From an uncultured Chloroflexales bacterium (lineage in GTDB: Bacteria; Chloroflexota; Chloroflexia; Chloroflexales; Chloroflexaceae): a stretch of DNA of 64,000 nt. Location of the stretch: assembly GCA_937918935.1 (NCBI GenBank), contig CAKZSI010000032.1, positions 1-64,000 of the forward strand. The letters run 5' to 3'. Every line of letters starts with the position of its first letter. Position 1 is the stretch's first letter. The translations under genes and the position numbers were made by a program. Below are positions 13,060-40,344 of this stretch, piece after piece. The notes under the pieces were generated by a model, which did not search any database, was not told the DNA's origin, and saw only the letters and a list, made by a program, of their open reading frames with translations.

Positions 13060-15189
13060 CTACTCAATGCTCATACCCATAAACGCCAGGCTCAACCGCC
13101 GGGAGGGCTGGCCCGGCGGTGGGTCGGCAGGGGCATTTAAGTATAGCACAGTCTCGCCGGGGGGCAGCACAAGGTGCAGGGTGCGGCGCATGCGCGCGCG
13201 GCTGATGGTCAGAGTGAAGGGTGCGGCGTCACCCAGGCGGGCAGTGAGTGGGCGAGGGCGTGCGAAGGCTTCGAGGTCGAGGGTCAGGCGCACGGGGCGC
13301 GGGGCGACGGTCGGGTTGAGCAGGAAGACCTGCGCCTCATTACCCATCCAGCGCCACCGCGTGCCCGTGGCGTCCTGCTCCAGGTCGCCCCAGCCGGGGC
13401 CGAGGTAGGCCAGAGGGCGCGGTCGCTCCGGCGCAGGTATGGGATAAAAGGTCACCTGTTCGTCGCGGTAGCTCTCGCCCAGACCCATCTCGGCGATGAG
13501 ATCGCGCATGCGCGGCAGCGAGGAACCCATCGAGTCGTGATGGAACACGACATAACGTATGGTGTAGGCCGCCAGGGTCTCGCGGGCCAGGTCGGGCCAG
13601 CCGGGGCTAAGGATGTCGTCGCGTTCGACCCGCCCGAAGCGCAGTTCCTTGATCCCCGGGGCGTAGTGACCCAGAGGATAGGGCGGCTCGCGCCCGATGA
13701 AGCCGCCGATGATCGGCCAGTGGTGGCGGGTCTGGTACCAGAGGTGCTCGCTGTTGGAGAAGTTCAGGTGGAGCGGGATGGGCAGCAGGGCGCCGTCGGG
13801 GGGGGGCATGCTCAGGTAGGCGCGGGGCATAGGGCGCTGGAAGAGCGGCGCGGCTCCGGCCGTGCCGTCAATGGCGATGATGCCTGCCAGCAGTGCTGTG
13901 ACCAGCAGCGGTGCGCCCCGACCCGCGCGGGCAAGCAGGGGGCGGGCGCCGGCGGCGGCGAAGAGGGCGGTAGTGAGGAGGCTGATGAGCACAAAATGGT
14001 TGGGCCGGTGGCTGGAGCGCACCCCGGGCAGGTCGCGGATCAGGGCGTAGGGGCCGGGGAGACCAGTGTTGCGCCCGAACACGAAGATCTCCGCCCCCAG
14101 GGCCATGGCCGCCGCGAAGATGCCGAGCGTCAGCCAGCGCCAGTGGGCGCGCCAGTTCAGGGTGAGGCCGTAGAGCGCCAGGGCGATCCCCACCATGCCC
14201 AGCGACACGTTCCAGAGGATCTCGCCGGGGTGCAGCCGTTCGTAGAAGGTCGTCACGCTCCTTCCCCAGAGGGGATGGTTGGGATTGGGCAGCCAGAAGC
14301 TCAACAGGTCGGCATACGCTTGCTGCTCGCTGCGGGCGTCGCCGAGGAGCGTATCGCCAGTGTGCAGCAGGGCGAGGAGCCGCGGGGTCATCACCGCGAA
14401 CCAGAGAACGATCGGCGCCAGGCCCCAGAGCAGGGTGGCGATGTGCAGGCCCACCGGGGCGGCGGGCTGCCGCAGGGTTGCCGACGGCGCAGCGGCGGGG
14501 CGGAGCGCCCACAGTCCGGCCATGAGGCCGGTGGCGATCAGCGCAAACAGGCCGTAGTACCAGGTGCCCAGGCCGACCATGAGCAGCGCGGCGCCGCTGA
14601 GCAGGGCCAGGGGCCAGCGCGGGCGCTCGAGCAGCGCAGCGGTCGCCAGCGCCCACAGCGGCAGCCACTGGATGGAGGCGACCTCGAGTTGCGCATCGAG
14701 CACCTTTTGCATGTGGAAGGGCGCGAAGGCGTAGACTGCGCCACCGATGAGCGCCGCCAGGGTCGCGCTCCGCCGATCGACCGTGTCGCGCAACACGTAG
14801 GCGATGAAGAGGAAGGCGAAGTAGCCGCCGAGGATGAAACTCAGCAGGATCAGCAGGTTGTAGGCCGGCAGGGGGCCAGCGGTGAGGGTGACCGGCAGGG
14901 CCAGGATCCCCTGGGGCAGGCTCAGCGTTTGCCAGAAGAGATCCAGCCCCTGGGGATGGAAGAGCAACGGGGTCACAAACGGGTTCTGGCCGGTGGTAAG
15001 GGCATGCGCCGTCCACCAGACGTTCCAGATCCCCAGGTAGCCGTCCACCTGGCCGGGCTGGTTGGCGATGATGTGCTCGCCGAGGTGCAGCGGCAGGGGA
15101 AAGGTGACCACCAGGGCCAGCAGGGTGTAGACCAGCAGGGCCAGGGCGTGGGAGGGCCAGCGGGGGCGGGTTGTGGCGGTGGGGCGCAC
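13060..15189 (-). CDS. GT-C-like membrane protein, WNxWW family (paralogue A)
   Basis: 709 residues. A first span (about 15-35) is followed by the outer loop with DGYLGIWNVWW, NPFVTPLLFHPQG and QTLSLPQGILALP, then about ten more spans and a C-terminal extracytoplasmic beta domain starting near residue 585 (YLGPGWGDLEQDATGTRWRWMGNEAQVFLLNP). Three more genes in this window (32783, 36353 and 44817) share both the WNxWW loop and this terminal domain. It begins with GTG immediately after the stop of the upstream GT-C gene, so the two are cotranscribed. Likely a lipid-linked sugar transferase, but no characterised homologue is recognised. Confidence 0.72.
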   Translation of the reverse strand: MRPTATTRPRWPSHALALLVYTLLALVVTFPLPLHLGEHIIANQPGQVDGYLGIWNVWWTAHALTTGQNPFVTPLLFHPQGLDLFWQTLSLPQGILALPVTLTAGPLPAYNLLILLSFILGGYFAFLFIAYVLRDTVDRRSATLAALIGGAVYAFAPFHMQKVLDAQLEVASIQWLPLWALATAALLERPRWPLALLSGAALLMVGLGTWYYGLFALIATGLMAGLWALRPAAAPSATLRQPAAPVGLHIATLLWGLAPIVLWFAVMTPRLLALLHTGDTLLGDARSEQQAYADLLSFWLPNPNHPLWGRSVTTFYERLHPGEILWNVSLGMVGIALALYGLTLNWRAHWRWLTLGIFAAAMALGAEIFVFGRNTGLPGPYALIRDLPGVRSSHRPNHFVLISLLTTALFAAAGARPLLARAGRGAPLLVTALLAGIIAIDGTAGAAPLFQRPMPRAYLSMPPPDGALLPIPLHLNFSNSEHLWYQTRHHWPIIGGFIGREPPYPLGHYAPGIKELRFGRVERDDILSPGWPDLARETLAAYTIRYVVFHHDSMGSSLPRMRDLIAEMGLGESYRDEQVTFYPIPAPERPRPLAYLGPGWGDLEQDATGTRWRWMGNEAQVFLLNPTVAPRPVRLTLDLEAFARPRPLTARLGDAAPFTLTISRARMRRTLHLVLPPGETVLYLNAPADPPPGQPSRRLSLAFMGMSIE

Positions 15190-17283
15190 TCAGGGACCTC
15201 GTTGGGCAACCAGCACGGCGACGCCGGTGTACCAGGGCGCCCGTTCCAGGTCGAGCAGGCTGGTGGGGCTGGTGATGCTGACGACCAGGGGCGTGGCGGG
15301 GTCGCACGGCGCGCCGAGGGGCAGGGTGACCTCTTCCGGGGCGCCGCTCAGAACGACGCGGCGCTCGACCCCGGCGGCGCGCAGGGTCACGGGGCGACCG
15401 GCGGGGCCGCGGAGAGTCAGGCGCGGGTCGCCGCAGCCGCCCAGGCGCAGGCGGGCGGCGCCGAGGGTCCAGCGACCGGTGGGCAGGTCGAAGGTGGCCG
15501 GAGCGAAGCCGACGAAGTGGCCGAGGGCGGTGGCGGCGCCGGGCGCGAGGCGCGAGGGCGCAGGGGTCGGGGCGACCTTCCAGGCCCAGAAGTAGAAATC
15601 GTTCGTATCGCGTCCGAAGCCGGCGATGCGGGCGTGGGCGCTGGCCGCCGCTGCGGCATCGCCGCGCAGGGTGGCGATCCAGGTCTCCATCGTCAGGGCG
15701 TAGAGGCTGCGGGGTTCGAGGGCGCTGGCCTCGGCGAACCAGGCCGCGGCGGCGGGCAGATCGCCACGGGCGAAGGCCAGGTCGCCCAGGGCAATGGGGC
15801 GGAGCGAATTGGCGGGGTCGGCGCGGAAGGCGGCGCGGAAAGCGGCCTCAGCGGCGAGGGCATCGCCGCGGGCCAGAGCCTGGCGTCCCTCGGTGGCGAT
15901 GCGCTCGGCGCGCGCCCAGGTGATGTAGCGGGTGCTAACGATCAGACTGGCGAAGAGCAGCCAGCCCGCCAGCAGCGCGCCCGCGCGCAGCATCTGGGGG
16001 CGGGAGAGGCCGTGGCGCAGTGCTCGCAGGGCCGCCGGCAGGCGCCAGAGGGCATAGGCGCAGAAGGGAACGCACACCGCCACCAGCGGCAGCCGCAGGC
16101 GGTGATGGGCCACGGTCACCGCCGCCAGCAGCACGCCGAAGGTGAACCAGGCCACGGCGGGCGCGGCCCGGCGCCACGAGGGGGCGAAGCACAGCCCGGC
16201 GATGCCCCCAGGCATCAGCAGGACATACTGGAGATCAGCAAGCACACTGAGGGGCCGCGGGTTCTCGCCGGCGCTCAGGGCGATCTGCTCATCGCGGGGG
16301 CTGATCGTTACTACGTCGCCCACGGCGAAGCTGCGCGACTGGAGCAGGAAGAGCGAGGCGACCTTGTAGCGCATGCGGTTGAGGAAGAAGAGCGGGTCCT
16401 CGCGGATGCGCTCGAGCGTCAGACGCACGGCGAGGGCCTGGCGGTCGGCCAGGTTGGGCTGGCTGAAGATCAGTTCCTCAGTGGCCTGTTGCTCCTCGTC
16501 GCTGCGCACCATGCCGAACCACATACTGATGCCCCCGTTGGTGTCGGACAGAATGAGCCGCTCGTGCACGAGGTAATTGCGCAGCGCCCAGGGGCCGATC
16601 ACCAGGGCCGCGCCGAGGAGCAGCGCCAGCGGCGGGGCCAGGCGGCCGGCGAGGCGGGCGCAGGGTGCGCGGCGGGGGAGGGCGAGGACCAGCAGTGCGG
16701 CGAGGGGGATGAACCACAGGGCCACAGCGCGGGTCAGGGCGGCGAGGGCCAGGAGCAGGCCGGCGAAGAAGGCCGGGCGCCAGCGCGTGGTGACGATAGT
16801 TCCATCCAGCAGCGCCAGGGCCAGAACGATCAGCGCCACGAAGAGCGCCTCGGCGAAGAGCACGCTGCCAAAGCTGGCGAAGGGTACAAAGACCGCTGCC
16901 AGGGCGGCGCTGAGCGCCCCGACGGCGCGGCTGGCGAAGAGCCGTTGCCCGAGCCAGGCAAAGGCCAGCACGCCCATGCCGCTCACGATGGCCTGGCCGA
17001 GCAGCGCCCAGCGCACATCAACCCCGGCGAGGGTGAACATCAGAGCGAGGAAAGCCGGGTAGACCGGGGGGCGCAGCCACTTACCCGTATCGTGGTAGCC
17101 GCCCTGGAGGATGTGCAGCGCGGCGCGGTAGTACTCCTCGGGGTCGCCCGGCTGCACGGCGCCGGCGGGGGCCTGCCAGGACCAGAACCAGACCCGCAGG
17201 CCCACCGCCAGAGCGACGATCAGCGCCAGGGCCAGCGCGTAGCCGCGGGCGGGCGGGCGGGACAGCGAACGGGCAGGGGGCAT
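15190..17283 (-). CDS. GT39-like membrane glycosyltransferase with TPR tail
   Basis: 697 residues from the ATG at 17283; a TTG 26 codons upstream is the only longer option and adds a polar stretch before the first span. About eleven membrane spans follow an acidic outer loop (AVQPGDPEEYYRAALHILQGGYHDTGKW), as in GT39/ArnT-like GT-C enzymes. From about residue 490 a soluble region has tetratricopeptide-like helices (GDALAAEAAFRAAFRADPANS, GDLPAAAAWFAEASALEP), then a beta domain of about 130 residues. First gene of the minus-strand glycan block. TPR tails usually mediate protein contacts, so it may scaffold the other transferases; this is inference. Confidence 0.75.
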   Translation of the reverse strand: MPPARSLSRPPARGYALALALIVALAVGLRVWFWSWQAPAGAVQPGDPEEYYRAALHILQGGYHDTGKWLRPPVYPAFLALMFTLAGVDVRWALLGQAIVSGMGVLAFAWLGQRLFASRAVGALSAALAAVFVPFASFGSVLFAEALFVALIVLALALLDGTIVTTRWRPAFFAGLLLALAALTRAVALWFIPLAALLVLALPRRAPCARLAGRLAPPLALLLGAALVIGPWALRNYLVHERLILSDTNGGISMWFGMVRSDEEQQATEELIFSQPNLADRQALAVRLTLERIREDPLFFLNRMRYKVASLFLLQSRSFAVGDVVTISPRDEQIALSAGENPRPLSVLADLQYVLLMPGGIAGLCFAPSWRRAAPAVAWFTFGVLLAAVTVAHHRLRLPLVAVCVPFCAYALWRLPAALRALRHGLSRPQMLRAGALLAGWLLFASLIVSTRYITWARAERIATEGRQALARGDALAAEAAFRAAFRADPANSLRPIALGDLAFARGDLPAAAAWFAEASALEPRSLYALTMETWIATLRGDAAAAASAHARIAGFGRDTNDFYFWAWKVAPTPAPSRLAPGAATALGHFVGFAPATFDLPTGRWTLGAARLRLGGCGDPRLTLRGPAGRPVTLRAAGVERRVVLSGAPEEVTLPLGAPCDPATPLVVSITSPTSLLDLERAPWYTGVAVLVAQRGP

Positions 17284-17451
17284 AGGGTAGCTCTGCAACG
17301 AACCATTTGCCTGGGCGCGGCCTTGCAGGTCACTTTCAGGCGCTCCGCAATGACCTGCCAATTGTACTCGAAACTACTGGTTGCAGCGCAACCTGGAGGA
17401 TTGCGGGCAGGGGCCGGGAGGGCCGGGCCCTCGACGGGCGCAGATATGCGA

Positions 17452-22109: not shown

Positions 22110-22242
22110 AGGCTGTGAACTGAGTTTTTCGCTAAACCCACCTACTCCCCAACCCTCCCCCGCCGGGGGAAGGCATCTGGCTCCTTCCCCAACGGGGGGT
22201 CTGGGAGGGAGGCGGAGATGCCAGGAAACCTGGTTCACAGAC
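22110..22242. mobile_element. MITE-like element, copy 1
   Basis: 133 bp bounded by GGCTGTGAAC and GTTCACAGAC (inverted, one mismatch), with TA immediately to the right and CA to the left. A second copy with the same ends lies at 38500-38634. The interior has C-rich and G-rich runs able to fold. There is no coding capacity, as expected for a non-autonomous Tc1/mariner- or IS630-type derivative. The ATG of the HEAT-repeat gene (22218) and a GGGAGG ribosome-binding-like sequence lie inside it. Confidence 0.65.
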
Positions 22243-25200
22243 TACGAAGCCTCACGGCAGGGAATTCCGTGCTAACAAGTAAAGCGTTCACCTTCCTTCT
22301 CGGCAACCGCGCCGCGCGGCGTTCTCGCGCGGCGCTGGAGTCATTTCTGGCGCGGGAGCCGGGCCTGCAGGTGCTGCCGGGGCTGCTCGACCTGCCCCTG
22401 GGGCTCGAACCGCTGCCCGAACCGGCGGCGATCCTTGCCGCGCCGTCGCACCTGGCCATCTGCGGCCCGCCGGCCTCGGGGCGCACGCTGGCCCTGTTGC
22501 AGGTTGCCGCGCGCTGGTGTGCGACGGGAGCGGGTGGGCCGGTAGTTTATCTCTCGCTGGCCGCCGACGACGCGCCGAGTCTGCCACCGCGGGCCATCCT
22601 TGCCAGGGCGTTCCAGCGGGCCGGGCTGCCCGTGGCCTCTGACGCGCGCCCGGGGATCGTGTTGCTTGACGACTGGGAGACGCTGCCCGCCGATCGGCGA
22701 CTGATGTGGCGTACCTTTCTGACCACTCCGGTGCGGGAGTGGAGCGCCCTGCGGATGGTTGTCGCCTTGCCTGAGGGTGAGCGTTGGCCGAATTATCGTG
22801 GCCTGGAACTGCCCGACGACGCGGGGATCCGGGCTGCCTGGCTCCGTCACCTGCTGCCGGCGGAGGATTCGGCGCCCCTGCTCGTCGCGCCGGGCGCCGG
22901 TGGCAGTGGCGCGCCGATCCGTCTGGCCGATCTGGCCCTTATGGCGCTGACCGTGCCGGACCACGGGCCGCCGGCCTCCCGGACGGATTTGTACGCGCGG
23001 GCCTACGAGATGTTCCGTGCCGGTCTGGAGGGCAGGGAGGGCGACGAACCCTCTCCGCCCCCGGCGCTGGGCCGGGCGCTGCTACGGCATTACCAACTGG
23101 CGCGGGCCTTCGCCGGCAGCGCCAAGATTGGCGGGCTGGCGAGCCTGCCGCCGGTCGAGCGGGTCGCCGTGGCGCCGCTGACCGCGGGGCTGCTTGGCAC
23201 GCCGGCGCCGGTGCTGGCAGCCCTGTGGCCTGGCGACGCCCCTTCAGGGGCGAGTCTGGCTGCGAGTGTGGCCTGTCTCCTCGAAATGCCCGATCGGGCG
23301 CCCGTGTGGGGCCTGCGACTGGTCGAGCATCTGGCGCGCCCGGAGGCGAACGCGGAAGAGCAGGCGGCCCTGGCCACGCTGGCCCCGGCCCTGCCGCGCA
23401 TTCTTGCCGCCGCGCACGAGGTCGAGCGGGCCTCCCTGGTCCTCCGCGCCGCCGATGCCGCGCTCCCACCCACCGCGGGACGGTGGCTGCCGCTGGTGGA
23501 TCATCCCGGGGCGCCCGTCGCCTTGCGGTGGGCCGCCGCCGACCTGCTGGCGCGCCAGGAGTTGGATCGGGAGTTGGTGGCCGCGGTTCCCGAGGCGTCT
23601 GACCCGCTGGCGCTCCGGGTGCGGGCCTTTCTGGCGGCCACCGCAGTAGAGGGGGGGACGGCGCTGCTGGCGACGCCGCCGCTGCGGGCGGGTGTGGTGG
23701 ATCTGCTCGACGATCCTTCGGCAGGTGAACGCCGACTGGCGGTCGCGCGGGCCATCCTCGCCGATGGGGATTTGCCCGACGATCTACGTGCCCTGGCCCT
23801 GATCGGCGACCGCGCGGTGCTGGAGCAGGCCCTGGGTTCGCCCGTTACCGTATTGCGCCGGGCGGGGCTGGCGGCCCTCCGCGAGGAGGATCCGGAGGTC
23901 GCGGTGGCCATGCTGGCGCGGGCGCTCCACCACCCCGAGGCTACCGCCGTGACCCGTAGCGAGGCCCTGGATACCCTGGCGGCGCTCGATCACCCCGGCG
24001 CGACGGCGATGCTCATTCGGGCGCTGCTCGATGCGCAACTCGGTCTGGCGACCCGGCTGCGAGCGTTGAGATTGCTCGCGTCGAGGGGGCGGGCCGCAAC
24101 CTGTGTGCTTCGTCAGGTGGTGGAGGCAGGCCGGCTGCCTGTAGCGTTGCGCGCCGCCGCTGCCGTACACCTGGGGCGGCTGGAGGACGGCAGAGCGTTG
24201 CCGCTGCTACGTAATCTGCTCGAAAGCGACGCGCCGCCATTGTTGCGCCGGAGCGCGGCGGAGGCGCTTGGCGCCCTGGGGCAGCGTCTGGAGCAGGCCG
24301 ATCAGGTGGCCGCGGCGTTGATCACCGGTCTGCGGCGGGCAGGTGTGGACGCGACCCTTGTGGGCGCCATCGCGCGGGGGTTGGGGCGGAGCGGCGCCAA
24401 TGCAGCCCTGCCGCCGCTACGTTCGCTGCTTGGCCCGGCGCTGGCCGATGTGCTGCGCGCGGCCTGGGAGCGGCGCGTACCCGAGCTGGCCAGTCGCCCC
24501 GCACGAGACTGGCCTGCCCTGGCGCTGCCCGCCGAGACCCGTGTGGTGTTGATGGACGCCCTGGCCGAGGGCGAGACCCTCGCCGACCAGCCCTCTAGCC
24601 TGGCCGAGTGCTGCACCCGACAGGCCGAACGGATTGCCGAGGCGGCGGCGCTGGCGCTCGCTGACCTGGCCCACGCGCGCCCCGATCTCCAGACTGCGGT
24701 ACGCGCCGCCCTGCGCCAGACGGTCACTACCGATACCCGTCCGGCCGTGGTTTGCGCAGCCCTCGACAGCCTGGACGCCTGTAGCGATCCAGGGGAGGAA
24801 CTCGAAGCGTTGCTCGATGATGCCACGGTGACGCTGCCCGTCAAATGGCTGGCCCTGGAGCGTCTGGGCCGGCTGGCGTCCACGCGCGAGGCTCTCACCT
24901 GCCGCTTGAACAGCGGCGACCCCTTCCTGCGGGCGGCGATGGTCACGCTGCTGGCCGCGCAGGGCCACGAGGCCGCCCTGCCGGCTATTCGCCGCCTGGC
25001 GCGTGACGCCGTGGGCGACCCGCACCTGCGGCGCGCCGCTATCGTGGCCCTGGGACGGTTTCCTGCCGCCGAGGTGAGCGCGACCCTGGTCGCCCTGGCC
25101 GCCGACGCCAGCGTTTCCACCGACATCCGCGCGCTGGCCGCGGCCACGTTGCCGGCCACCCTTTCAGCCGACGAACGGGCGGCCCTCTACCGCGCGTTGC

Positions 25201-25964
25201 GGGTCGCGCGGCAGCCGGAGGATCTGGAGGTGGCCCTGGCGCGGGCGCTGGCCCGCGCCGGTGAGCGCGACGCGCTGCCGATTCTGCTACGGCTGGCGCG
25301 GAGCGAAGCCGGGTCCGCCGCCATCGCCAGCCTCGAGGTCCTGGCCGAGGCGGGCGATGACAGCATCGAGCCGGTGCTGGTGGCGGTGAGCCAGAGCCAC
25401 CTGGCGACCCCGGCGGTGCGGCTTGCCGCCATTGCGGCGCTGCTGCGGCTGTGCGGCCCGTCGCACCTGACCCTGCTCCGCGAATACTTGAGCAGCGGGT
25501 CCTCCCCGTTGCGGATGCGCGCCTATGCCGTTCTCGCGGCGACCTGCCCCGACGACCCGCGGCTCGGTGAACCCCTGAGCGACCCCACGGCCCCGCTCGC
25601 CCTTCGGCTCCAGGCCCTGGAGCGCCTTGCCGCCCGTGATCCCGCCGCGCCCGCGCTGGAAGCGGCCCTGACCCGTCCTGACGAAGAGCCGCAACTGCGC
25701 CTGGCTGCCGCCGGGGCCCTGGCGCGTGGGGCGTCAACCGCCCCGGAGGCGTTCGCCGCCGTGCTCGCGGACGAACCTGACCAGCCGCCGCCCCCGCCAC
25801 TGTTGCGCCGGCGCTGTATCGAAGCCCTGGCAGTGCTGGCCCGGCAGAACGCCGCTGCCGCGCCCGCGGCCCTGGAGCACCTGAGCGTCCTTGCCGAAGC
25901 GCCAGACCAGCCAGCGGAGCAGCGGCACTGGGCGGGTGAGGCGTTGTGCCATTTTGGATTGTAG
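22218..25964 (+). CDS. P-loop NTPase-like / HEAT-repeat protein
   Basis: 1248 residues, no signal peptide or membrane span. Near the N-terminus a nucleotide-binding-like fold has GPPASGRT (83-90), a Walker A in which the usual lysine is arginine, and IVLLDDWE (147-154) as Walker B, resembling STAND/NACHT-type ATPases. From about residue 330 to the end are roughly 25 alpha-helical HEAT-like repeats (for example ALPPLRSLLGPALADVLRAAW, ALPAIRRLARDAVGDPHLRRAAIVALG). The start is unsure: the ATG lies in the MITE-like element, and a GTG at 22269 would begin outside it. The last four codons and stop (HFGL-stop) come from another dispersed repeat. Probably a protein-interaction scaffold; partner unknown. 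Confidence 0.75.
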   Translation: MPGNLVHRLRSLTAGNSVLTSKAFTFLLGNRAARRSRAALESFLAREPGLQVLPGLLDLPLGLEPLPEPAAILAAPSHLAICGPPASGRTLALLQVAARWCATGAGGPVVYLSLAADDAPSLPPRAILARAFQRAGLPVASDARPGIVLLDDWETLPADRRLMWRTFLTTPVREWSALRMVVALPEGERWPNYRGLELPDDAGIRAAWLRHLLPAEDSAPLLVAPGAGGSGAPIRLADLALMALTVPDHGPPASRTDLYARAYEMFRAGLEGREGDEPSPPPALGRALLRHYQLARAFAGSAKIGGLASLPPVERVAVAPLTAGLLGTPAPVLAALWPGDAPSGASLAASVACLLEMPDRAPVWGLRLVEHLARPEANAEEQAALATLAPALPRILAAAHEVERASLVLRAADAALPPTAGRWLPLVDHPGAPVALRWAAADLLARQELDRELVAAVPEASDPLALRVRAFLAATAVEGGTALLATPPLRAGVVDLLDDPSAGERRLAVARAILADGDLPDDLRALALIGDRAVLEQALGSPVTVLRRAGLAALREEDPEVAVAMLARALHHPEATAVTRSEALDTLAALDHPGATAMLIRALLDAQLGLATRLRALRLLASRGRAATCVLRQVVEAGRLPVALRAAAAVHLGRLEDGRALPLLRNLLESDAPPLLRRSAAEALGALGQRLEQADQVAAALITGLRRAGVDATLVGAIARGLGRSGANAALPPLRSLLGPALADVLRAAWERRVPELASRPARDWPALALPAETRVVLMDALAEGETLADQPSSLAECCTRQAERIAEAAALALADLAHARPDLQTAVRAALRQTVTTDTRPAVVCAALDSLDACSDPGEELEALLDDATVTLPVKWLALERLGRLASTREALTCRLNSGDPFLRAAMVTLLAAQGHEAALPAIRRLARDAVGDPHLRRAAIVALGRFPAAEVSATLVALAADASVSTDIRALAAATLPATLSADERAALYRALRVARQPEDLEVALARALARAGERDALPILLRLARSEAGSAAIASLEVLAEAGDDSIEPVLVAVSQSHLATPAVRLAAIAALLRLCGPSHLTLLREYLSSGSSPLRMRAYAVLAATCPDDPRLGEPLSDPTAPLALRLQALERLAARDPAAPALEAALTRPDEEPQLRLAAAGALARGASTAPEAFAAVLADEPDQPPPPPLLRRRCIEALAVLARQNAAAAPAALEHLSVLAEAPDQPAEQRHWAGEALCHFGL

Positions 25965-26040
25965 ATTTTGGATTGTTGTATGTAGTGTTCTGGTGAGACC
26001 TGGTGATGATGCGCATGCCGTCTGTATTGATAGGAACCGG
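25951..26040 (+). repeat. ATTTTGGATT-type dispersed repeat, copy A
   Basis: About 90 bp starting with ATTTTGGATT twice and ending with TGATGATGCGCATGCCGTCT...GGAACCGG. Related units lie at 38451-38683 (interrupted) and 57807-57884. It begins inside the HEAT-repeat gene and provides its stop codon. Confidence 0.65.
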
Positions 26041-26175
26041 TATTTGTCGGGATTGCATAACATTTGGAGGATCTGTGAGCGCAGATCCTTCCGTCCCGGC
26101 GGGGGGAGGCTGGGAGGGGGGCAGAACGCTGCGAGCTGCGGCGTATCTGCGAAACCAACGTCCAGGGAGCGCATC

Positions 26176-27000
26176 GTGGCAACTCGCATTCTGGTGATTG
26201 ACGACGAACCGGTGATCTGCCGGTTGATCGAATACCAGCTCGGAGGCGCGGGCTACGAGGTCACAGCGTACCAACGGGGCCACGACGCGCTGCTGGCACT
26301 TGCCGACGAGGTTCCGGATCTTATCTTGCTCGATGTGATGATGCCGGGGATCAGCGGCTGGGATCTGTGCCGCCAGATCCGCGCCAGTTCGCCGGTGCCG
26401 ATCATCATGTTGACGGCCAAACACGGCGACGACGATGTCATCACCGGCCTGATGAGCGGCGCCGACGACTATGTGGGCAAGCCCTTCAGCGCGGATGCGC
26501 TGATCGCGCGGATCGAGGCGGTGCTGCGGCGCAGCCGGAGGGCCAACGACCGGCGCCGGCCCACGCCGGTCTCCCTGGCGCGTGTTGAACCGGCGCCAGC
26601 GCCAGTGGCGGCGGCGCCGGCGCCGGGCAGCGCCGCGCCGCGGGCCGGCAGGCCCCTGGTCAGCGAAACCACGCCCGTAGCGGACCGCCGGCCACGGCTC
26701 GGCCCGCTGCTGGCCGAGGCGCGGCGCCAGCGGCGCCTGAGCCTGCACGATGCTGGCGAGATCTGCGGTGTGCGCTGGGAGTTTTTGCAGGCCATCGAGC
26801 GCGAGCAATTCAGCTACGTGCCCCGCGACGAACTGCGCCATGCCCTGCGGGCCTACAGCGCCCTGCTCGATGTTGATCTTGGCCCCTACCTGGGGCGCGG
26901 CGGGTCACGCCGGCGTCGGGTTCCGGGGGCGCTGCCGCTCACCGTGGGGGTGGTGGCGGTGCTGGCGATGGTGCTGGTGGTGGTGATTCTTGTGTTATGA
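26176..27000 (+). CDS. Response regulator fused to RodZ-like HTH and membrane anchor
   Basis: 274 residues from a GTG with AGGGAG upstream. Residues 1-118 form a complete receiver domain: acidic pair D9/D10, phospho-acceptor D53 in LLDVMMPG, T80 and K102 (GKPFSA). A Pro/Ala-rich linker (about 119-172) leads to a RodZ/HTH_25-type helix-turn-helix at about 175-238 (LGPLLAEARRQRRLSLHDAGEICGV...LRAYSALLDVDL). After the basic run SRRRRVP comes one transmembrane helix (252-273) at the extreme C-terminus. A winged-helix output domain is absent. No histidine kinase gene adjoins it. A membrane-tethered, phosphorylation-controlled regulator or cytoskeletal adaptor is inferred. Confidence 0.85.
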   Translation: MATRILVIDDEPVICRLIEYQLGGAGYEVTAYQRGHDALLALADEVPDLILLDVMMPGISGWDLCRQIRASSPVPIIMLTAKHGDDDVITGLMSGADDYVGKPFSADALIARIEAVLRRSRRANDRRRPTPVSLARVEPAPAPVAAAPAPGSAAPRAGRPLVSETTPVADRRPRLGPLLAEARRQRRLSLHDAGEICGVRWEFLQAIEREQFSYVPRDELRHALRAYSALLDVDLGPYLGRGGSRRRRVPGALPLTVGVVAVLAMVLVVVILVL

Positions 27001-31087: not shown

Positions 31088-32644
31088 ATGCTACGCAACC
31101 AGACTCTTCCTGTCGCAGCGCGCGTCTCGGTCCTTCCGGCGTGGCTCGGCCCGCGCCGGGCGCTGGCAGGGTTGCTGCTGGTCTTCAGCGCGCTGATCAT
31201 CGGCGCGGGGTCCTACAAGTACGCCTACTGGGGCCATGGCTTCGACATGGTGGACTTTCACATGCCGATCTGGGGCACGCTTCACGGGCGTTTTCTGCTG
31301 GTGTCGCGCTACAATTTTACCGATACGTTCATGGGGCTGGATGTGGCCCTGGGATTTCTGCCTGCCATCCCGTTTTACGCCCTGGTCCCCTCGGCCTACA
31401 CCCTGGTAGTGGTGCAGACGCTGCTGCTGGCCTCGGCGGCCATCCCGGTCTACCTGATCGCCCGTGACCGGCTGGGCCATTCCTGGGCCGGGGTGGGCCT
31501 TGCGGCGCTCTACCTGCTCTACCCTACGACGCAGTTCATGGCCATGGCCGCGCCGTTCCAGCCGCGGATCCCCGGGCTGGTGGCCTTTTTCTGGGCCTTC
31601 TGGTTCCTGGAGCGGCGGCGGCTCTGGCCCTACCTGCTGCTGCTGGGCCTGGCCATGCTCTCGCGCACCGACGCGGCGCTGGTGGCGGCGGCCTTCGGGA
31701 TCTACGCCGCCTTACGGCGCCTGCCCCGGGCCTACAGCGCCGTGCCGGTGATCGTGAGCCTGGTCTACTTCTACGTGGCAATCACCTACATCACGCCGCG
31801 CTTCTACAGCCTGGAGTTCCAGCCGGTACGGGTCGAGGCCCCCTTTGATCTGAACCGCGATTACAACGAGATGTGGCCCTGCGGGGTCAGCCCGCAGGCC
31901 TGTTACTACCTGCACCTGGGTGGCAGCCTGCCGGCGATCGTGAAGAACATCCTGACCCACCCGGTCGAGGTCTTCCTGTTCATGGTCCAGCCGCCGAAGC
32001 TGGCTTACCTGGCGCTGATGCTGGCCGGGCTGCTTTTCGTGCCGCTGTTCGCCCCGCGCGAGTTGCTACTGGCCGCGCCGATCCTGGCGATCAACCTGCT
32101 CTCCAACCGGGTCTACCAGTACGTGATCACCGAGCAGTACCAGATCCTGGCCATTCCGGGGATGGTAATCGCGGCGATGTACGGGGCGGCGTGGCTGTGG
32201 GAGCGCGCCCGCGGGCGCCTGGCCAATCCATCGCGGGCGGGGGCGGTCGCTATGGCGGCCATGGTCGCGCTGGTGGCGCTGGTGAACCTGCCGCTGAAGA
32301 ACCCGGTCATTTCGGCCCTGCGCAACCCGGAGCGCCCGGAGCGGGTGGCGCTGATGGAGCGGATGAAGGCGCAGATCCCTCCTGATGCGGTGGTGGCGGC
32401 GACGTCGTTCCTGGCGCCACATCTGCTGCCGCGCGAGGCGATCTACTTCATCCCTGGCGGCAAGATGCACCACCAGGTGGACGAGGCCGAGTATGCCTTC
32501 ATTGATCTGCGGGCCAGCGGCCTGCGCGCCGAGGCCGCGCGGGGCAACGACATCGTCGCGCGCCTGCGCGCCGACCCGGCGTGGACGGTGGTGCATGAGG
32601 AGGATGATCTGCTGTTGTTGAGGAAGAAGCGAGGGAGATTTTAG
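31088..32644 (+). CDS. DUF2079-family multi-pass membrane protein
   Basis: 518 residues with about ten spans. The first outer loop has YWGHGFDMVDFHMPIWGTLHGRFL, where the G-x-D-x-x-x-x-x-Q/P-x-x-W pattern and following RYNFTDTF correspond to DUF2079, a family of GT-C-like predicted transferases. The ATG at 31088 has GAGGTAG upstream. The terminal 100 residues are soluble and end in a basic KKRGRF. Likely acts on a lipid-linked or surface glycan like its neighbours; no reaction is established for this family. Confidence 0.8.
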   Translation: MLRNQTLPVAARVSVLPAWLGPRRALAGLLLVFSALIIGAGSYKYAYWGHGFDMVDFHMPIWGTLHGRFLLVSRYNFTDTFMGLDVALGFLPAIPFYALVPSAYTLVVVQTLLLASAAIPVYLIARDRLGHSWAGVGLAALYLLYPTTQFMAMAAPFQPRIPGLVAFFWAFWFLERRRLWPYLLLLGLAMLSRTDAALVAAAFGIYAALRRLPRAYSAVPVIVSLVYFYVAITYITPRFYSLEFQPVRVEAPFDLNRDYNEMWPCGVSPQACYYLHLGGSLPAIVKNILTHPVEVFLFMVQPPKLAYLALMLAGLLFVPLFAPRELLLAAPILAINLLSNRVYQYVITEQYQILAIPGMVIAAMYGAAWLWERARGRLANPSRAGAVAMAAMVALVALVNLPLKNPVISALRNPERPERVALMERMKAQIPPDAVVAATSFLAPHLLPREAIYFIPGGKMHHQVDEAEYAFIDLRASGLRAEAARGNDIVARLRADPAWTVVHEEDDLLLLRKKRGRF

Positions 32645-32830
32645 ATTTTGGATTTTGGATTTTTGGTTGGTGATTGGGTGTGGTGGGTTTGGAGGGGTGG
32701 ATGGTGGCGTGGCGCCGGATGCGACCATCGTTCCGACGACCCACCCGCGTGGTGCAAATGGCGGAAATGAGGATCCCACACCATGTCTCAACCCCCAATC
32801 CAAAATCCAAAATCTCAAATCCAAAATCCC
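32641..32830. repeat. Inverted pair of ATTTTGGATT-type repeats
   Basis: GATTTTGGATTTTGG lies at 32644-32658, and the inverted form (AATCCAAAATCCAAAATC) lies at about 32797-32814 with one more unit to 32830. The right-hand copy lies inside the next gene and encodes its residues PIQNPKSQIQNP. Confidence 0.65.
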
Positions 32831-34906
32831 TACATCCCCCTCCTCCTGGCCTACCTGCTCCTGGCCCTCTGGCTTACCTGGCCGGCGGCGGCTGCATTCG
32901 GCAGCCAGTACTTCACCGGCGGCGAGCGGATCTTCTTCTTCCCCGACACACCCGACGCGCCGCAGAATATCTGGAACTTCTGGTGGGCCGCCCGCGCCCT
33001 GGACGCGGGCCGCAGCCTGTGGTTCGCCGATCTGCTCTACTACCCCGAGGGGGTGCAGATGGCCCTGCAGACCCTCAACCCCCTCGCGGTGACGCTGGCC
33101 CTGCCGGTGACCCTGACCCTCGGCCCCACGGCGGCCTATAACCTGACGGCGATTGTCGCTGTGGCCCTGACAGGCTATGCCGGCTTCTGGCTGGCGCGCG
33201 CGTTCGCGCCGGGGGTGGTCGGGCCGTTCCTCGCCGGGGCATTGCTCGCCGCCGCGCCCTTTCATATCGCCAAGCTCGACTCGGGCCAGTTGAACTTCGT
33301 TACCATGCAGTGGCTGGTGCTGTTCATGCTGGCGTTCGTGCATCTGTGCCGCGGGCAGGGCCGCCGGGGGCCGCCGCTGGCGGCGCTGGCCTACGGGGCG
33401 GTGCTCTACACCGACTGGTACTGGGCGCTGGTGGGGGCGGCCTTCGCCGCCGTGTGGGCCGGGCTGAGTATGATCGGCGCGGCGCGCCCACGGGCGCTGC
33501 TGGTGCGCTGCCTGGCCTTTGGCGCGCTGAGCCTCGCCCTGGCGCTGCCGTTGCTCGCGGCGGCGCGCGCGGCGGGCGAGAGCCTCCCGCGCGAGCCCAA
33601 TGAGATGTGGCTGGCCTATACCCTGGGCTACTCCGCCGACGCACTGGGGCTGTTCTTCCCCGCCGCGCGCCATCCCCTCTGGGCTGCGCCCGTCGAACGC
33701 TTCCTGGTCAGCGTCGCGCCCCTCTCGATCACCGAGGGCTCCTATACTGCCGCTGGCTGGACCCTGCTGGCCCTGGCGATTCCCGGCATGATCTGGTATG
33801 GCCGCAGGCACTGGCGCTTGCTGGTGGTGGCCCTGCTGGCCTGGCTGCTGGCGGTTGGCCCGACCCTGCACGTGCTGGGGCACGACACCGGGCTGCCGAT
33901 GCCCTACCGCCTGTTCCAGTTCCTGCCGCTGCTCGGTACGGCGCGGCGGCCCAATCTCTTCGGGGTGATTACTATCGTGGTTGCGGCGGTGTTCGCCGCG
34001 CTGGCCCTGAATAGCCTGCGCGAGCGTCTGGCGCCGCGAGGCTTTGCGCGGCTCCTCGTCGCGGTCGCCGCGCTGGGGGCGCTGGAACTGTGGCCCCCGG
34101 CGCGCGTGCCCAACGTCCTGCCGCGCCCCGAGGTGTTCACGCGCATCGCCGCCGAGCCGGGCGTCGTGGTGGACCTGCCGCTGGAGCGGGGTACCGACAG
34201 CCGCACCTTGATCCACCAGATGGTCCACGGGCAGCCCATTCTGCGGGGCTACGTGGCGCGCCCGCCGGTGTATCCGACCCTGGCCCACAGCCCGTTGCCG
34301 GCGCAGTTTGGCCAGACGCGCGTCTGGCCGGACGATGACATCGTTGCTCTCGACCCGGAGGCGCTGGCGGTGATGCAGTGCTACTACCGGCTGCGATACC
34401 TGGTGCTTGAGCCAGGGGCACTGACGGCGGAGCAGGAGGCGGCGGTCCTCGAAGTGGCGGCGCGGCTGAATGGCGCCCCACTCGAACCCTGGTACACCGA
34501 CGCGCACTTCCGCGCCTACCGCCTGCCCCTGCACGCCGACCGCTGTGCGCCGTTTGTGTTCCTGGGCACTGGCTGGAACAGCCGCGAGGGCCAGGGCGAG
34601 ACGGTCTGGCGCTGGAGCACCGGGCGCAGCGAGCTGTACCTGGTCAACCCCGAGGCTGAACTGCGGGCGGTGACGCTGGATCTGCTGGCCGAGGGCCGCG
34701 AAGAGGGCCAGCCCCTGACGATCCGGCACGCCGGGCGCGTGGTGGCCGAGCTGCGTCTCGCGCGGCCGCTGCGGCGCTACCGCGTTACGCTCCTGGCTCC
34801 GCCGGGCCAGAGCCGGTGGGAGTTGCTGACCCCGGCAGCGCCCGACCCGGCCAGCAACCGCGAGGTAGGTTTCGCTGCGCGGGCGGTGAAGGTGGTGGGT
34901 CTTTGA
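32783..34906 (+). CDS. GT-C-like membrane protein, WNxWW family (paralogue B)
   Basis: 707 residues. The N-terminus MSQPPIQNPKSQIQNP is encoded by dispersed repeat sequence and precedes the first span (YIPLLLAYLLLALWLTW). The outer loop has DAPQNIWNFWW and the following LLYYPEGVQMALQTLNP, then about ten spans. The C-terminal beta domain (LGTGWNSREGQGETVWRW...LYLVNPEAE) matches those of the genes at 13060, 36353 and 44817. Only a weak ribosome binding site (GAGG) precedes the ATG. No downstream start gives an intact first span, so the repeat-encoded leader is probably translated. Role inferred as a surface-glycan transferase. Confidence 0.72.
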   Translation: MSQPPIQNPKSQIQNPYIPLLLAYLLLALWLTWPAAAAFGSQYFTGGERIFFFPDTPDAPQNIWNFWWAARALDAGRSLWFADLLYYPEGVQMALQTLNPLAVTLALPVTLTLGPTAAYNLTAIVAVALTGYAGFWLARAFAPGVVGPFLAGALLAAAPFHIAKLDSGQLNFVTMQWLVLFMLAFVHLCRGQGRRGPPLAALAYGAVLYTDWYWALVGAAFAAVWAGLSMIGAARPRALLVRCLAFGALSLALALPLLAAARAAGESLPREPNEMWLAYTLGYSADALGLFFPAARHPLWAAPVERFLVSVAPLSITEGSYTAAGWTLLALAIPGMIWYGRRHWRLLVVALLAWLLAVGPTLHVLGHDTGLPMPYRLFQFLPLLGTARRPNLFGVITIVVAAVFAALALNSLRERLAPRGFARLLVAVAALGALELWPPARVPNVLPRPEVFTRIAAEPGVVVDLPLERGTDSRTLIHQMVHGQPILRGYVARPPVYPTLAHSPLPAQFGQTRVWPDDDIVALDPEALAVMQCYYRLRYLVLEPGALTAEQEAAVLEVAARLNGAPLEPWYTDAHFRAYRLPLHADRCAPFVFLGTGWNSREGQGETVWRWSTGRSELYLVNPEAELRAVTLDLLAEGREEGQPLTIRHAGRVVAELRLARPLRRYRVTLLAPPGQSRWELLTPAAPDPASNREVGFAARAVKVVGL

Positions 34907-34967
34907 TTTTGGATTGGGGGCGGGAGGTGAGGGCGCAGGGCTCGGGGGCGAGGCGCCCGCCCCGTGG

Positions 34968-35495: not shown

Positions 35496-36356
35496 GTGAT
35501 CGAACCAACCGCCACAACTGACCTGGAAACCCTCGAGCGGGCGATTGATCCCTGGCTGCGCCACATGGCCTGGCGACGCGATTTCGACCGCTGGCGCGAG
35601 CGGCGCATCAACCAGGAGCGTTACCAGGACGAGCGCCTGGCTATGCTCGTCCAGGTCGCCGGTCTGCTCGAAGGGCTGCGCCTGCTCGACCTGGGGGCGG
35701 GTATGGGCGGCTTCGCCGTGGCGGCGGCGCTGCGGGGCGCGGAGGTGACGGCCTGCGAGTACAACCCGGCCTACTGCCGCATCATCGAGCTGCGCGCGGC
35801 GCGCCACGGGCTGCGGCTGCCGGTGGTCAATGCCGCGGGCGAGGCCCTGCCCCTGCCCGATGCCTCGTTTGACGCGCTGACGGCCTGGGATGTGCTGGAG
35901 CATGTGCGTGACCCGCGGGCGGTGCTGGGGGAGATGCGGCGGGTGTTGCGGCCCGGCGGCCACGCCCTTATCACCGCGATCAACCGGCGGGCCTGGGTGG
36001 ACCCCCACTACCACATCCGAGGCGTCAACTGGCTGCCCCGCTCGCTGGCCGAGGCGATCATCGCCGCGCGGGGGCGCAGCAAGGCCGGGGCGGCCTTCCG
36101 CGATATGCAGCGCCTTAGCGAGATGCACTACTTTCACTACCCCGAACTGGTGCGGCTCTGCGAGACGTTCGGCTTCCGCGTGCGCGATCTGCGTGAGGAG
36201 CAGTTGCGCGCCGGGCGCCTGGCGAGCCGCAGGGCCAGCCGGCGGGCCGTGCGCGCCCTGCTGCGGCGCGCGGGTCTGGAGGAGGCGGCCTACCGCGCCC
36301 AGCGCCGCTGGTACGTGGGGATGTTCGAACTGGCGTTGACCAGGGTGAGCGCATGA
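35496..36356 (+). CDS. Class I SAM-dependent methyltransferase
   Basis: 286 residues from a GTG. Motif I is LLDLGAGMGGFAVAAALRGAEVTACEYNP, motif II region FDALTAWDVLEHVRDP, and the post-motif LRPGGHALITAIN. The downstream YFHYPELVRLCETFGFRVRDL and the basic tail are common in methyltransferase domain 11/23 proteins acting on sugars or lipids. The stop overlaps the next gene (ATGA at 36353-36356), so translation is coupled to the GT-C protein, and its substrate is probably an intermediate of the same glycan. Confidence 0.85.
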   Translation: MIEPTATTDLETLERAIDPWLRHMAWRRDFDRWRERRINQERYQDERLAMLVQVAGLLEGLRLLDLGAGMGGFAVAAALRGAEVTACEYNPAYCRIIELRAARHGLRLPVVNAAGEALPLPDASFDALTAWDVLEHVRDPRAVLGEMRRVLRPGGHALITAINRRAWVDPHYHIRGVNWLPRSLAEAIIAARGRSKAGAAFRDMQRLSEMHYFHYPELVRLCETFGFRVRDLREEQLRAGRLASRRASRRAVRALLRRAGLEEAAYRAQRRWYVGMFELALTRVSA

Positions 36357-38446
36357 ACCACGCCGGACGGCTGGCGCTGACGCTGCGGGCGCTCGGGTCG
36401 GTCTGGCTGGCGGCGACCCTGGGCTACCTGGGCCTTAGCCTGTTCGTCCTGGCCCCGGTGTTGCCGGTCTTCGCGTCGGCCATCCCCGGCGGCCCCGTCG
36501 CCAATGTGGACGGCTGGCAGAATGTCTGGAACCTGTGGTGGTTCCACCGGGCCGTGACCGCGGGCCAGAACCCTTTCTTCACCGATCTGCTCTTCCATCC
36601 CACTGGCGTCACGCTGGCGACGCAGACCTTTAACAGCAGCAACGGCCTGCTGGCGCTGCCCATCACGGCCCTCTTCGGCCCCATTGCCGGCTACAATGCC
36701 GCCGTACTGCTCTCCTTCGTCCTGGCCGGGGTGGGGGGCTTCGCCCTGACGCTCCACGTGACCCGGCAGCCGGTGGCCGCCTTCGTCGCCGGGTGCATCT
36801 TCGCCTTCGCGCCGTTCCATATGACCAAGGTCTGGGACGGGCAACTGGAACTGGCGGCGGTGCAGTGGCTGCCGCTGTACGCGCTGTTCCTGCTCCGCGC
36901 CGCCGCGCCGGAGGGCGCCTGGCGCGACGTAGTGCTGGCCGGGGCCTCGCTCGCGCTGATCGGCTATACGAGCTGGTACTACTTCTTCTTCGCCGGGATC
37001 GCCAGCCTGTTCATGGCCGCGCTCTGGCTGCCCCATCGCGCCGGGCCGCGGGCGCTGGGCGGGGCGGCGCTGCGCCTGGCGGCGGCAGCCGGCCTGGCGG
37101 CGCTGCTGCTGGCTCCGCTCCTCCCGCCCCTGCTGCGCGGGGCGCTGGGCCAGAGCGATCCCGCTCCGGGGATGGCCCTGCTCGCCGACCGCTCGGCGAA
37201 CCTGCTGGACTTCTGGCTGCCCAGTAACCTGCACCCCCTCTGGGGCGAAGCCGCGCAGGTCCTGGGCGAGGGCTGGCACCCCTACATCGCCGCCTGGAAC
37301 GTGGCCCTGGGCCTCACCCCGCTGCTGCTGGCCCTGGCGGCTCTGTGCCTCGACCCCGGTGCAGCCTGGCGCTGGGTGGCGCTGGGGGTCGCGGCGGGAG
37401 TGCTGGCCCTCGGCCCCACGTTGCAGATCGGCCCCTGGCGCACCGGCATCCCCCTTCCCTACGCCGCGCTGGCGGCACTGCCCGGCGGCAACCTGGCCCA
37501 CCGCCCGAGCCACTTTGTGGTCATCAGCGTGGTGGCCCTGGCTGTGCTCTCCGGTCTGGGCTTACGGGCGCTTATGGACCGCGCTGGCCCCGGATGGCGC
37601 GCCTGGCTGCCCCTCGTCACCCTGCTGGCCATCGGGCTGGAGTTCCTGCCCCCGCGCTGGCCGTTATGGTCGCCGGTGGTCCATCCCTACTACGCGACGC
37701 TGGCCAGCGCACCCGGCGCCCTGCTGGTGCTGCCGCCGCCCATGGAAGACAGCCAGGCCCTGCTGGCTCAGATGCGCCACCAGCGCCCCATCCTGGGCGG
37801 GTTCCTCGCCCGGACGCCGCCCTACGATCCGCCTTACGCCCCCGGCGTGCGCGAGTTGTGGGCGCCACGGGCGGACCAGCCGCTCCTTACCGCTACCCTC
37901 GAGGAGGGACGGGCGGTCCTGCGTTACTATGGCATCAGCCACATCGTAGTAGAGCGGTCGCGCCTGGAGGCCGGGGCGGAGCGCGCACTGGAGGTCGTGA
38001 TCGTCGAACTGCTCCCTGATGCCAGCCCGGAGTATGCCGACGAGACGCTCAGGGTGTACGCGACCCCCGACGGGCCGGTCCTGCCGTTCGCCTTCATCCG
38101 CTCCGGCTGGTACCCGCCGGAGCGCGAGGGCGACCGCGTGTGGAGCTGGATGGCCGGCACGGGAGAGATCATCCTGGTCAATCCCACCGCCGCGCCCCTG
38201 CCGGTGACGCTCGACTTCAGTGTGGCAAGCTACCGGCGCCCGCGGGAACTGGCGCTGGATCTGGACGGGGCGTCCCTCGTCCGTGTGACTGTTCGGCCCG
38301 CCGAGATGCGGATGGCGCTGCGCCTGCTGGTCCTGCCCGGCGCCCACCGGATGACCGCCCGCGCTCCCGTTGAGCCGGAAGCCGCCTCCTCGGCCCGGCC
38401 GATCAGCGTCGTCTTCAGCGCCCTCGATGCGCGCTGGGGAAAGTGA
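36353..38446 (+). CDS. GT-C-like membrane protein, WNxWW family (paralogue C)
   Basis: 697 residues. A first span (about 20-40) leads into the loop NVDGWQNVWNLWWFHRAVTAGQNPFFTDLLFHPTGVTLATQTF, then about ten spans including FAPFHMTKVWDGQLELAAVQWLPLYALFLL, a segment shared by the family. The C-terminal beta domain (RSGWYPPEREGDRVWSWMAGTGEIILVNP) starts near residue 585. It starts in a 4 nt overlap with the methyltransferase gene. Same family as 13060, 32783 and 44817. Likely a lipid-linked sugar transferase; catalytic residues not proven. Confidence 0.75.
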   Translation: MNHAGRLALTLRALGSVWLAATLGYLGLSLFVLAPVLPVFASAIPGGPVANVDGWQNVWNLWWFHRAVTAGQNPFFTDLLFHPTGVTLATQTFNSSNGLLALPITALFGPIAGYNAAVLLSFVLAGVGGFALTLHVTRQPVAAFVAGCIFAFAPFHMTKVWDGQLELAAVQWLPLYALFLLRAAAPEGAWRDVVLAGASLALIGYTSWYYFFFAGIASLFMAALWLPHRAGPRALGGAALRLAAAAGLAALLLAPLLPPLLRGALGQSDPAPGMALLADRSANLLDFWLPSNLHPLWGEAAQVLGEGWHPYIAAWNVALGLTPLLLALAALCLDPGAAWRWVALGVAAGVLALGPTLQIGPWRTGIPLPYAALAALPGGNLAHRPSHFVVISVVALAVLSGLGLRALMDRAGPGWRAWLPLVTLLAIGLEFLPPRWPLWSPVVHPYYATLASAPGALLVLPPPMEDSQALLAQMRHQRPILGGFLARTPPYDPPYAPGVRELWAPRADQPLLTATLEEGRAVLRYYGISHIVVERSRLEAGAERALEVVIVELLPDASPEYADETLRVYATPDGPVLPFAFIRSGWYPPEREGDRVWSWMAGTGEIILVNPTAAPLPVTLDFSVASYRRPRELALDLDGASLVRVTVRPAEMRMALRLLVLPGAHRMTARAPVEPEAASSARPISVVFSALDARWGK

Positions 38447-38450
38447 TACG

Positions 38451-38683
38451 ATTCTGGATTCTGGGTTTTGGGTTGCCGTATACGGCGTCCGGGTAGGTAG
38501 TCTGTGAACGGAGTTTCCTTGCCTTTCTGCCCCCCTCCCAGCCTCCCCCCGTTGGGGGGAGGAGCGGGGCTTCCTCTCCCCGCGGGAGAGGGGTTGGGGA
38601 GAGGGCGGAGTTACCGAAAAACTGGTTCACAGACTAGTAAGCCCTGGCGATGATGCGCACACAGTCTATGCAGCAGGAATCGG
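38451..38683 (+). repeat. ATTTTGGATT-type dispersed repeat, copy B, split by the MITE-like element
   Basis: Left part 38451-38499 (ATTCTGGATT... TTGGGTTGCCGTA) and right part 38637-38683 (CTGGCGATGATGCGC...GGAATCGG) together match copies A and C. The 135 bp MITE-like element sits in the middle, flanked by TA. Confidence 0.65.
38500..38634. mobile_element. MITE-like element, copy 2
   Basis: 135 bp with perfect 10 bp inverted ends GTCTGTGAAC and GTTCACAGAC, flanked on both sides by TA (38498-38499 and 38635-38636), the target duplication of Tc1/mariner and IS630 transposition. The interior has CCTCCCCCC/GGGGGGAGG and CTCTCCCC/GGGGAGAG hairpins. No coding capacity. Confidence 0.7.
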
Positions 38684-38694
38684 TGTAAGCGGTC

Positions 38695-40344
38695 ATGTCT
38701 TCGACCGGGGCCAGGAAGCCCTCGCTCGCTGCCCAGGTCTCGAAGGCCGTGGTCTGGAACACGGTCTTCGTGCCGCTGCGTCTGGCCGCCGAGGCGCTGG
38801 CCACCATCGTCAAGCTCAATTTTCTCACCCAGGCCGGTTATGGCCTGCTGGCGCTGATCAGCGGCGCCAACAATGGCCTGGGTACGGTGGTGGACCTGGG
38901 CACGGCGCGGGCGCTGCCGAAGTACATTCCCGAGGTCAGTCGCTTTGGCGGCCCGCGGGCGGTGCTACGCCTGCTTACCGCCGTCTTCGCCCTGCAAATG
39001 GGCGTGCTCATCGTGCTCGTCGCCGGCCTGGCGACCCTGTACCGCGAACCCTACCTGGACGCGCTGCGCCGGCGGGTCCTGGAGGATCCGCAACTCGGCC
39101 CCGCCGACCAGGCCGGGCTGCTCGGGCTGCTGGGCAACTTCGGCTGGCTGGTGATCGGGGCAATCGTGGCTCTGCTCTTTCTGGGCGTATGTTACGACAT
39201 GTTCATGGCCTACCTGAACAGCTTCTTCAAGCAGCGGGCCTGGAACAGCATCGCCCTGGCCGCCGGGCTGCTGCCGCAACTGCTCAGTGTGGCCGCCATT
39301 CTGCTTCTGCCCGATGTGTGGGACATCCTGGGCGTGCTGGTGGCCTCGGTGCTGGCCCCGGCCATCGCCGTGGCCGTGGCAGGGTGGCAGGTGGCGCGCC
39401 TGTGGCTGGAACAGCGGAGCTGGGCGCCGGAAACGCCCGCGCTTCCACCTGGCGCGCCGTGGCTGCCGCCGGGCTTCGTGCCCTACACCGGGGTTTCGTT
39501 CCTGATGACGCTGACTGACTTTCTGGCCAGTGCGTCGTTCGCGATCTACCTGGCGGGCGGGGTGAGCGATGCGGCGGTGCTGACGGCGGGTGCGGCGCTG
39601 GCACGGATGGCCCTGGGCTACCTCTACACGCCGATGGTGGGGGTGCAGGTGCCCCTGTTCACGCGGGTGCGGCAGGGGGAAGGCGGCACACTCAACGGGG
39701 CCTACCAGTCGCTGGTGCGGCTGCAACTGCTGCTGTTCGTGCCCGGCGGGGTCGGGCTGATGTTGCTGGCCGAACCGGCCCTGGTGGTGGTGGGGCCGCA
39801 GTACCTGGCGGCTGCGGCGATTGTGTGGGTGCTGGTTCCCTGCCTGTTCCTCGAGTCGCTGCTCACCACCGCCCACAACGCCCTGATCGTTTACGAGCGC
39901 CTGGGCATCATCATCGTCTCGCGGCTGATCATCCTGCTGGTGGTGGCGCCGCTGGCCTGGCTGCTGCCGCCGCGCCTCGGCCTGGTGGGGGTGGCCCTCG
40001 CCTTCGGGCTGGCGCGGGTGGCCGCCGGACTGTGGGTGACGGGGAATGGCATGCGCCTGCTGGGCCTGCGCTGGCCCTGGCGCTTCACCGGGCGGGTGCT
40101 GGCGGCCTCGGCGCTCATGGCCCTGGCGCTGCTGGGCCTGCGGGTCCTGCTGCCGCCGCTGCCCGAGGTGGTCACCCTGGCCGACCGGCTGCGCGAGGCG
40201 GTCTGGCTGCTGGGCCTGGCCCTGGCGGGCGCGGTGACCTTTTTCGTCGCCCTGCGCCTGTTCGGCGGCCTGGAGGAGCAGGACCGCGCCCAGATCGCCC
40301 GCCTGCGCCTGCCGCTGAAACGCTGGTGGCTGAGGGTGTTGTAA
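38695..40344 (+). CDS. Wzx/MATE-like polysaccharide flippase
   Basis: 549 residues with about 14 predicted membrane spans in two similar halves, the layout of the MOP superfamily (Wzx/RfbX). The first spans include VWNTVFVPLRLAAEALATIVKLNFLTQAGYGLLALISGANNGLGTVVDLGTARALPKYIPE, the usual opening of polysaccharide biosynthesis proteins, where a charged Arg/Lys precedes the membrane. It would flip a lipid-linked glycan across the membrane for the neighbouring GT-C enzymes. The ATG has only a weak upstream site. Stands between a GT-C gene and a GT4 gene. Confidence 0.82.
   Translation: MSSTGARKPSLAAQVSKAVVWNTVFVPLRLAAEALATIVKLNFLTQAGYGLLALISGANNGLGTVVDLGTARALPKYIPEVSRFGGPRAVLRLLTAVFALQMGVLIVLVAGLATLYREPYLDALRRRVLEDPQLGPADQAGLLGLLGNFGWLVIGAIVALLFLGVCYDMFMAYLNSFFKQRAWNSIALAAGLLPQLLSVAAILLLPDVWDILGVLVASVLAPAIAVAVAGWQVARLWLEQRSWAPETPALPPGAPWLPPGFVPYTGVSFLMTLTDFLASASFAIYLAGGVSDAAVLTAGAALARMALGYLYTPMVGVQVPLFTRVRQGEGGTLNGAYQSLVRLQLLLFVPGGVGLMLLAEPALVVVGPQYLAAAAIVWVLVPCLFLESLLTTAHNALIVYERLGIIIVSRLIILLVVAPLAWLLPPRLGLVGVALAFGLARVAAGLWVTGNGMRLLGLRWPWRFTGRVLAASALMALALLGLRVLLPPLPEVVTLADRLREAVWLLGLALAGAVTFFVALRLFGGLEEQDRAQIARLRLPLKRWWLRVL

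Follow-up and report, generated by a model that had tools for sequence, protein, structure and literature searches.

Response regulators usually are soluble transcription factors or enzymes, and receivers of the OmpR type dimerise through their alpha4-beta5-alpha5 face. An HTH domain held at the membrane is able to bind DNA in CadC (PMC5430869). In RodZ, as stated in a passage of PMC4047632 that cites van den Ent 2010, binding of the HTH to MreB needs an aromatic pair, F60/Y64 in E. coli and Y66/F70 in the chlamydial protein. Conflict systems of multicellular bacteria, Chloroflexi among them, can contain receivers that have no kinase (PMC8195603).

In the window, the whole stretch of 64,000 nucleotides analysed here, a gene at 26176-27000 (+) encodes a regulator of 274 aa plus stop with the layout REC-linker-HTH_25-TM. 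The start codon is GTG at 26176 and the stop codon TGA at 26998-27000, so that the coding part covers 26176-26997 (+); on reading the sequence, a Shine-Dalgarno-like AGGGAG (26164-26169, +) lies 6 nt 5' of the GTG. The receiver domain (26188-26517, +) was matched by Pfam Response_reg at aa 5-114 (E 6e-29) and is of the OmpR/PhoB type, scoring 8e-40 and 9e-39 against the PhoB and MtrA models and giving VicR, YycF and MtrA as Foldseek matches with 44–48% identity. It has the features that define a response regulator, namely a CheY-like fold, the acidic pair (D9, D10), the phospho-acceptor Asp (D53), the Thr/Ser (T80) and the Lys (K102). These five residues are invariant in 28 aligned orthologs, and direct reading confirmed the acidic pair, Asp, Thr and Lys in the Herpetosiphon regulators. 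A disordered, Pro/Ala-rich linker follows (26557-26691, +; pLDDT <50 at aa 133-169), which varies between 22 and 99 residues across the family. Pfam found no Trans_reg_C, the winged-helix DNA-binding domain, in the regulator and gave HTH_25 instead (26707-26877, +; aa 178-234, E 2.8e-8, 33.9 bits against a cut-off of 24.6). An RRRR run (aa 245-248; 26908-26919, +) is predicted to lie on the cytoplasmic side of the last element, a C-terminal membrane helix and tail anchor predicted from AlphaFold2 and hydropathy (aa 256-274; 26941-26997, +); the charge upstream of this helix is positive in most orthologs.

The AlphaFold2 model, built with 28 orthologs, was confident for the receiver, for the HTH helices (175-231, pLDDT ~95) and for a single helix at 255-273 (~90). 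In 43/43 orthologs the C-terminal hydrophobic segment of 19 residues contains no charged residue, ends within 7 residues of the C-terminus and has a mean hydropathy of at least 2.34. Because the receiver residues are invariant, the model is confident and the C-terminal segment is kept in 43 orthologs, the layout is conserved and not a product of chance, with membrane insertion predicted. Pfam, AlphaFold2 and the orthologs thus bear out the order that the preliminary description had read from a single sequence: receiver, Pro/Ala linker, HTH_25, basic run and final helix.

The regulator family comprises 43 distinct orthologs, found only in Chloroflexales with Roseiflexus and Herpetosiphon. A scan of one genome per species across ~85,000 species returned 33 regulator loci. 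Except for a few that are labelled just Chloroflexi or Chloroflexota and one Gracilibacteria MAG, the protein of which is identical to one in a same-family relative (G020), all records belonged to Chloroflexales and Herpetosiphon. In a phylum-wide search the last family member had E 3e-29; RodZ-like or class B proteins (see below) came next, at 2e-16. At two loci, L046 (959-1812) and L094, the receiver and the HTH-TM part lie in separate frames, through a frameshift that may be genuine or may stem from sequencing. A search limited to the open-access literature found no description of the REC-HTH_25-TM layout or of membrane- or tail-anchored response regulators, in agreement with the earlier suggestion that this is an undescribed class.

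The same genome encodes a second REC-HTH_25-TM protein (C49, L009:4582-5724, -; 380 aa) beside mnmG, which the preliminary description had overlooked. We refer to this type as class B, the family of the window's regulator being class A. Class B was detected in 74/80 genomes of the order, a count whose weakest matches may include class A or RodZ, and at convincing E-values it is confined to the order. Glu occupies the phosphosite in 30/37 class B proteins, mnmG lies near the gene in 36/45, and the linker carries a conserved FMSEAEEMALLR. Further class B proteins were observed at L131-L159.

The solved structures nearest to the regulator's HTH are YmfM (Z 10.8) and RodZ (2WUS, Z 10.1), in line with the RodZ-type fold proposed before; the DNA-binding HipB follows just behind. 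These structure-library matches are compatible with other HTH families as well. The HTH carries the family motif R-W-[ED]-[FY]-L-Q-A-x-E, in which W201, Q205 and E208 are invariant and R200 is found in 41/43 orthologs. From the RodZ likeness the preliminary description had suggested a contact with MreB that phosphorylation could switch, which would make the regulator a phospho-switchable RodZ tuning the cytoskeleton. This idea is consistent with the HTH_25 family, the RodZ-like fold and the two MreBs of this genome, but finds no support at the contact positions, which we aligned on the T. maritima RodZ sequence. While the position of Y64 is F or Y in 30/31 RodZs, it is aromatic in 0/43 regulators and 0/38 class B proteins; at the F60 position 43/43 regulators have a charged or polar residue (E, Q, H, D or R). 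The equivalents in the window's regulator are E219 and A223. Since the F60 position varies in Chloroflexaceae RodZs too (V in 10), the Y64 position is the stronger evidence. Moreover, a separate canonical RodZ that keeps the aromatic at the Y64 position is encoded in the same genome, and in a tree from a short alignment the HTHs split into one clade for the regulator family and another for class B (100/99 each). Co-occurrence with MreB was tried as a test and discarded: 60/61 relatives encode MreB, with or without the regulator, and a nearly universal gene cannot discriminate. We consider a phospho-switchable RodZ very improbable.

Upstream of the regulator on the same strand lies a gene that the preliminary description had also missed (22218-25964, +). 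By Pfam and alignment, its protein of ~1248 aa consists of a divergent NACHT-like N-terminal region and a HEAT-repeat array. HEAT_2 was matched in 18/18 partner orthologs, whereas the NACHT profile was matched in 4/18 (best 2.3e-6) and not in the window's own protein. The latter contains a Walker A-like GPPASGRT, with R for K, and a Walker B-like LLDDWE; the Walker A lysine expected of a NACHT/STAND NTPase is Arg in the aligned partner orthologs. The HEAT protein was also compared with NblB, an identity we rejected, as the score was 28 bits against a cut-off of 300 and the similarity reflects shared HEAT repeats only.

The HEAT gene was found directly upstream on the same strand in 52/52 regulator loci with enough sequence. 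One of the 53 loci was left out, having just 591 nt upstream, and some loci represent the same genomes from two collections. The distance from the HEAT gene to the receiver start is mostly -51 to +50 nt, the genes often overlapping or lying tens of nt apart; the spacer of 211 nt in the window (25965-26175, +), between partner stop and regulator start, is long in this genus. Beyond this pair the neighbouring genes differ between genera. A cognate histidine kinase was not found by Pfam among the 22 other window proteins scanned, neighbours included.

The spacer starts inside a short GATTTTGGATT repeat (25964-25974). The window has 8 such copies, whereas shuffles gave 0, and they sit at gene ends or close by; other positions are 32644-32661, 32797-32828, 34905-34915 and 57813-57823. 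The window also carries genes for DUF2079 and glycosyltransferase proteins, and several predicted proteins of 549–768 aa with no Pfam match at 1e-5 are encoded at 1840-17361 (-) and at 36353-40341 and 44817-46991 (+).

A NACHT-like region next to an anchored receiver protein might also indicate a conflict or immunity module, with the NACHT-HEAT protein as sensor of an invader and the receiver protein as effector or switch, possibly free of a kinase like the receivers known from conflict systems (PMC8195603). Against this, a single pair is found order-wide and the HEAT tree tracks the bacterial families, unlike mobile defence genes; PADLOC defence-system models gave only weak matches of the HEAT-repeat type to the HEAT protein, and the Walker A lysine is replaced by arginine. 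We therefore regard such a module as improbable. A search limited to the open-access literature yielded no description of NACHT-HEAT-receiver pairs in Chloroflexi.

Chloroflexus and one further genus (g4) carry the HEAT gene but not the regulator, whereas the regulator was never seen without the HEAT gene. On the HEAT tree, the presence or absence of the regulator requires two changes, which we read as two losses. In the two regulator-less lineages the ratio of C-terminal to N-terminal divergence of the HEAT protein was 1.21 (p 0.003) and 1.19 (p 0.001), compared to 0.88–1.07 in 10 regulator-bearing control lineages. The point of the split was picked after the profile had been seen; when it was moved from residue 500 to 900 the regulator-less lineages always ranked first and second, while at 300–400 one control lineage equalled them. 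The faster drift of the C-terminal half in both lineages is a comparative sign that the regulator may act on the C-terminal HEAT array, and the two natural losses point to where on the partner it probably binds. At one locus of Oscillochloris sp. ZM17-4 (L083:4258-6246) the N-terminal half of a NACHT-HEAT protein is joined in frame to a truncated HTH and a membrane helix. We do not take this as a fusion clue; with the first HTH helix and the whole receiver missing, it points to a deletion or an assembly error.

Sequence comparison establishes that the receiver is of the OmpR/PhoB type and has all residues of the phosphorylation site, that the RodZ-type HTH no longer carries the MreB-contact aromatics, that the protein ends in a predicted membrane helix and that its gene is strictly linked to that of the HEAT protein. 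We propose, with a probability of about 50%, that the tail-anchored response regulator is a membrane-bound regulatory subunit of the upstream NACHT-like/HEAT protein. D53 would be phosphorylated by a histidine kinase encoded elsewhere, and the phosphorylated receiver would dimerise via its alpha4-beta5-alpha5 face. Dimerisation might shift the HTH relative to the membrane, so that it binds to the C-terminal HEAT array or lets go of it, and either event may control recruitment or assembly of the scaffold. The 52/52 linkage amid otherwise changing flanking genes, the occurrence of the regulator only alongside a HEAT gene, the C-terminal drift after two losses, the invariant site and OmpR/PhoB type of the receiver, and the conserved HTH residues with MreB positions lost in 43/43 all argue for this proposal. 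Several points weigh on the other side. The HEAT protein persists without the regulator and hence functions in its own right; the accelerated drift might result from a general relaxation following the loss, or from other effects in these lineages; neighbouring genes of an operon may be co-regulated although their products do not touch; and no cognate kinase was detected among the scanned window proteins.

The main rival is a membrane-tethered transcription factor of the ToxR/CadC kind: once phosphorylated, the receivers would dimerise and bring a pair of HTHs onto an operator while the protein stays at the membrane. In its fold the HTH is close to Xre domains that bind DNA (HipB, SinR), DNA-binding dimers are what receivers of the OmpR type normally bring about, and CadC provides the precedent (PMC5430869). 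Nevertheless, the first reading positions of the would-be recognition helix are taken by a Trp and an Asp/Glu, both invariant, its mean net charge is -1.6, and the strict linkage to the scaffold gene is left unexplained. We judge this rival unlikely, while giving it more weight than the other two.

More broadly, the pair might constitute a two-component-controlled, membrane-recruited NACHT-like/HEAT scaffold restricted to the filamentous, gliding Chloroflexales, and a new output class of response regulators. The RodZ-derived HTH, once an adaptor to the cytoskeleton, would then serve for docking to a giant repeat protein. This wider reading is tentative, somewhat more so than the proposal itself. 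If true, response regulators would gain a further type of output, in the form of a phosphorylatable, tail-anchored protein coupled to a NACHT-like scaffold, and the HTH would be a clear case of a RodZ-type domain reused for something besides MreB. As both genes are found in cultured organisms, such as Herpetosiphon aurantiacus, the idea is testable.

Compared to known systems, the regulator shares with RodZ/YmfM (PDB 2WUS, 3FYM, 4GQM) the HTH_25 fold followed by one membrane helix, predicted here, and probably a cytoplasmic N-terminus. It differs in its added N-terminal receiver, the missing extracytoplasmic domain, the replaced MreB-contact aromatics, a one-residue deletion before helix 4 and its separate clade. 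The OmpR/PhoB family (VicR/YycF, MtrA, PhoB) is closest to its receiver in sequence and fold and has the same catalytic residues, but in the regulator HTH_25 and a membrane anchor take the place of the winged-helix output domain. ToxR and CadC likewise combine an HTH and a single membrane helix in one protein; they have no receiver and another HTH type, while the regulator lacks a sensor domain on the far side of the membrane. Class B finally shows the same domain order, yet differs from the regulator family in its mostly Glu phosphosite, the FMSEAEEMALLR linker, a longer tail after the helix, the mnmG neighbour and an HTH clade of its own.
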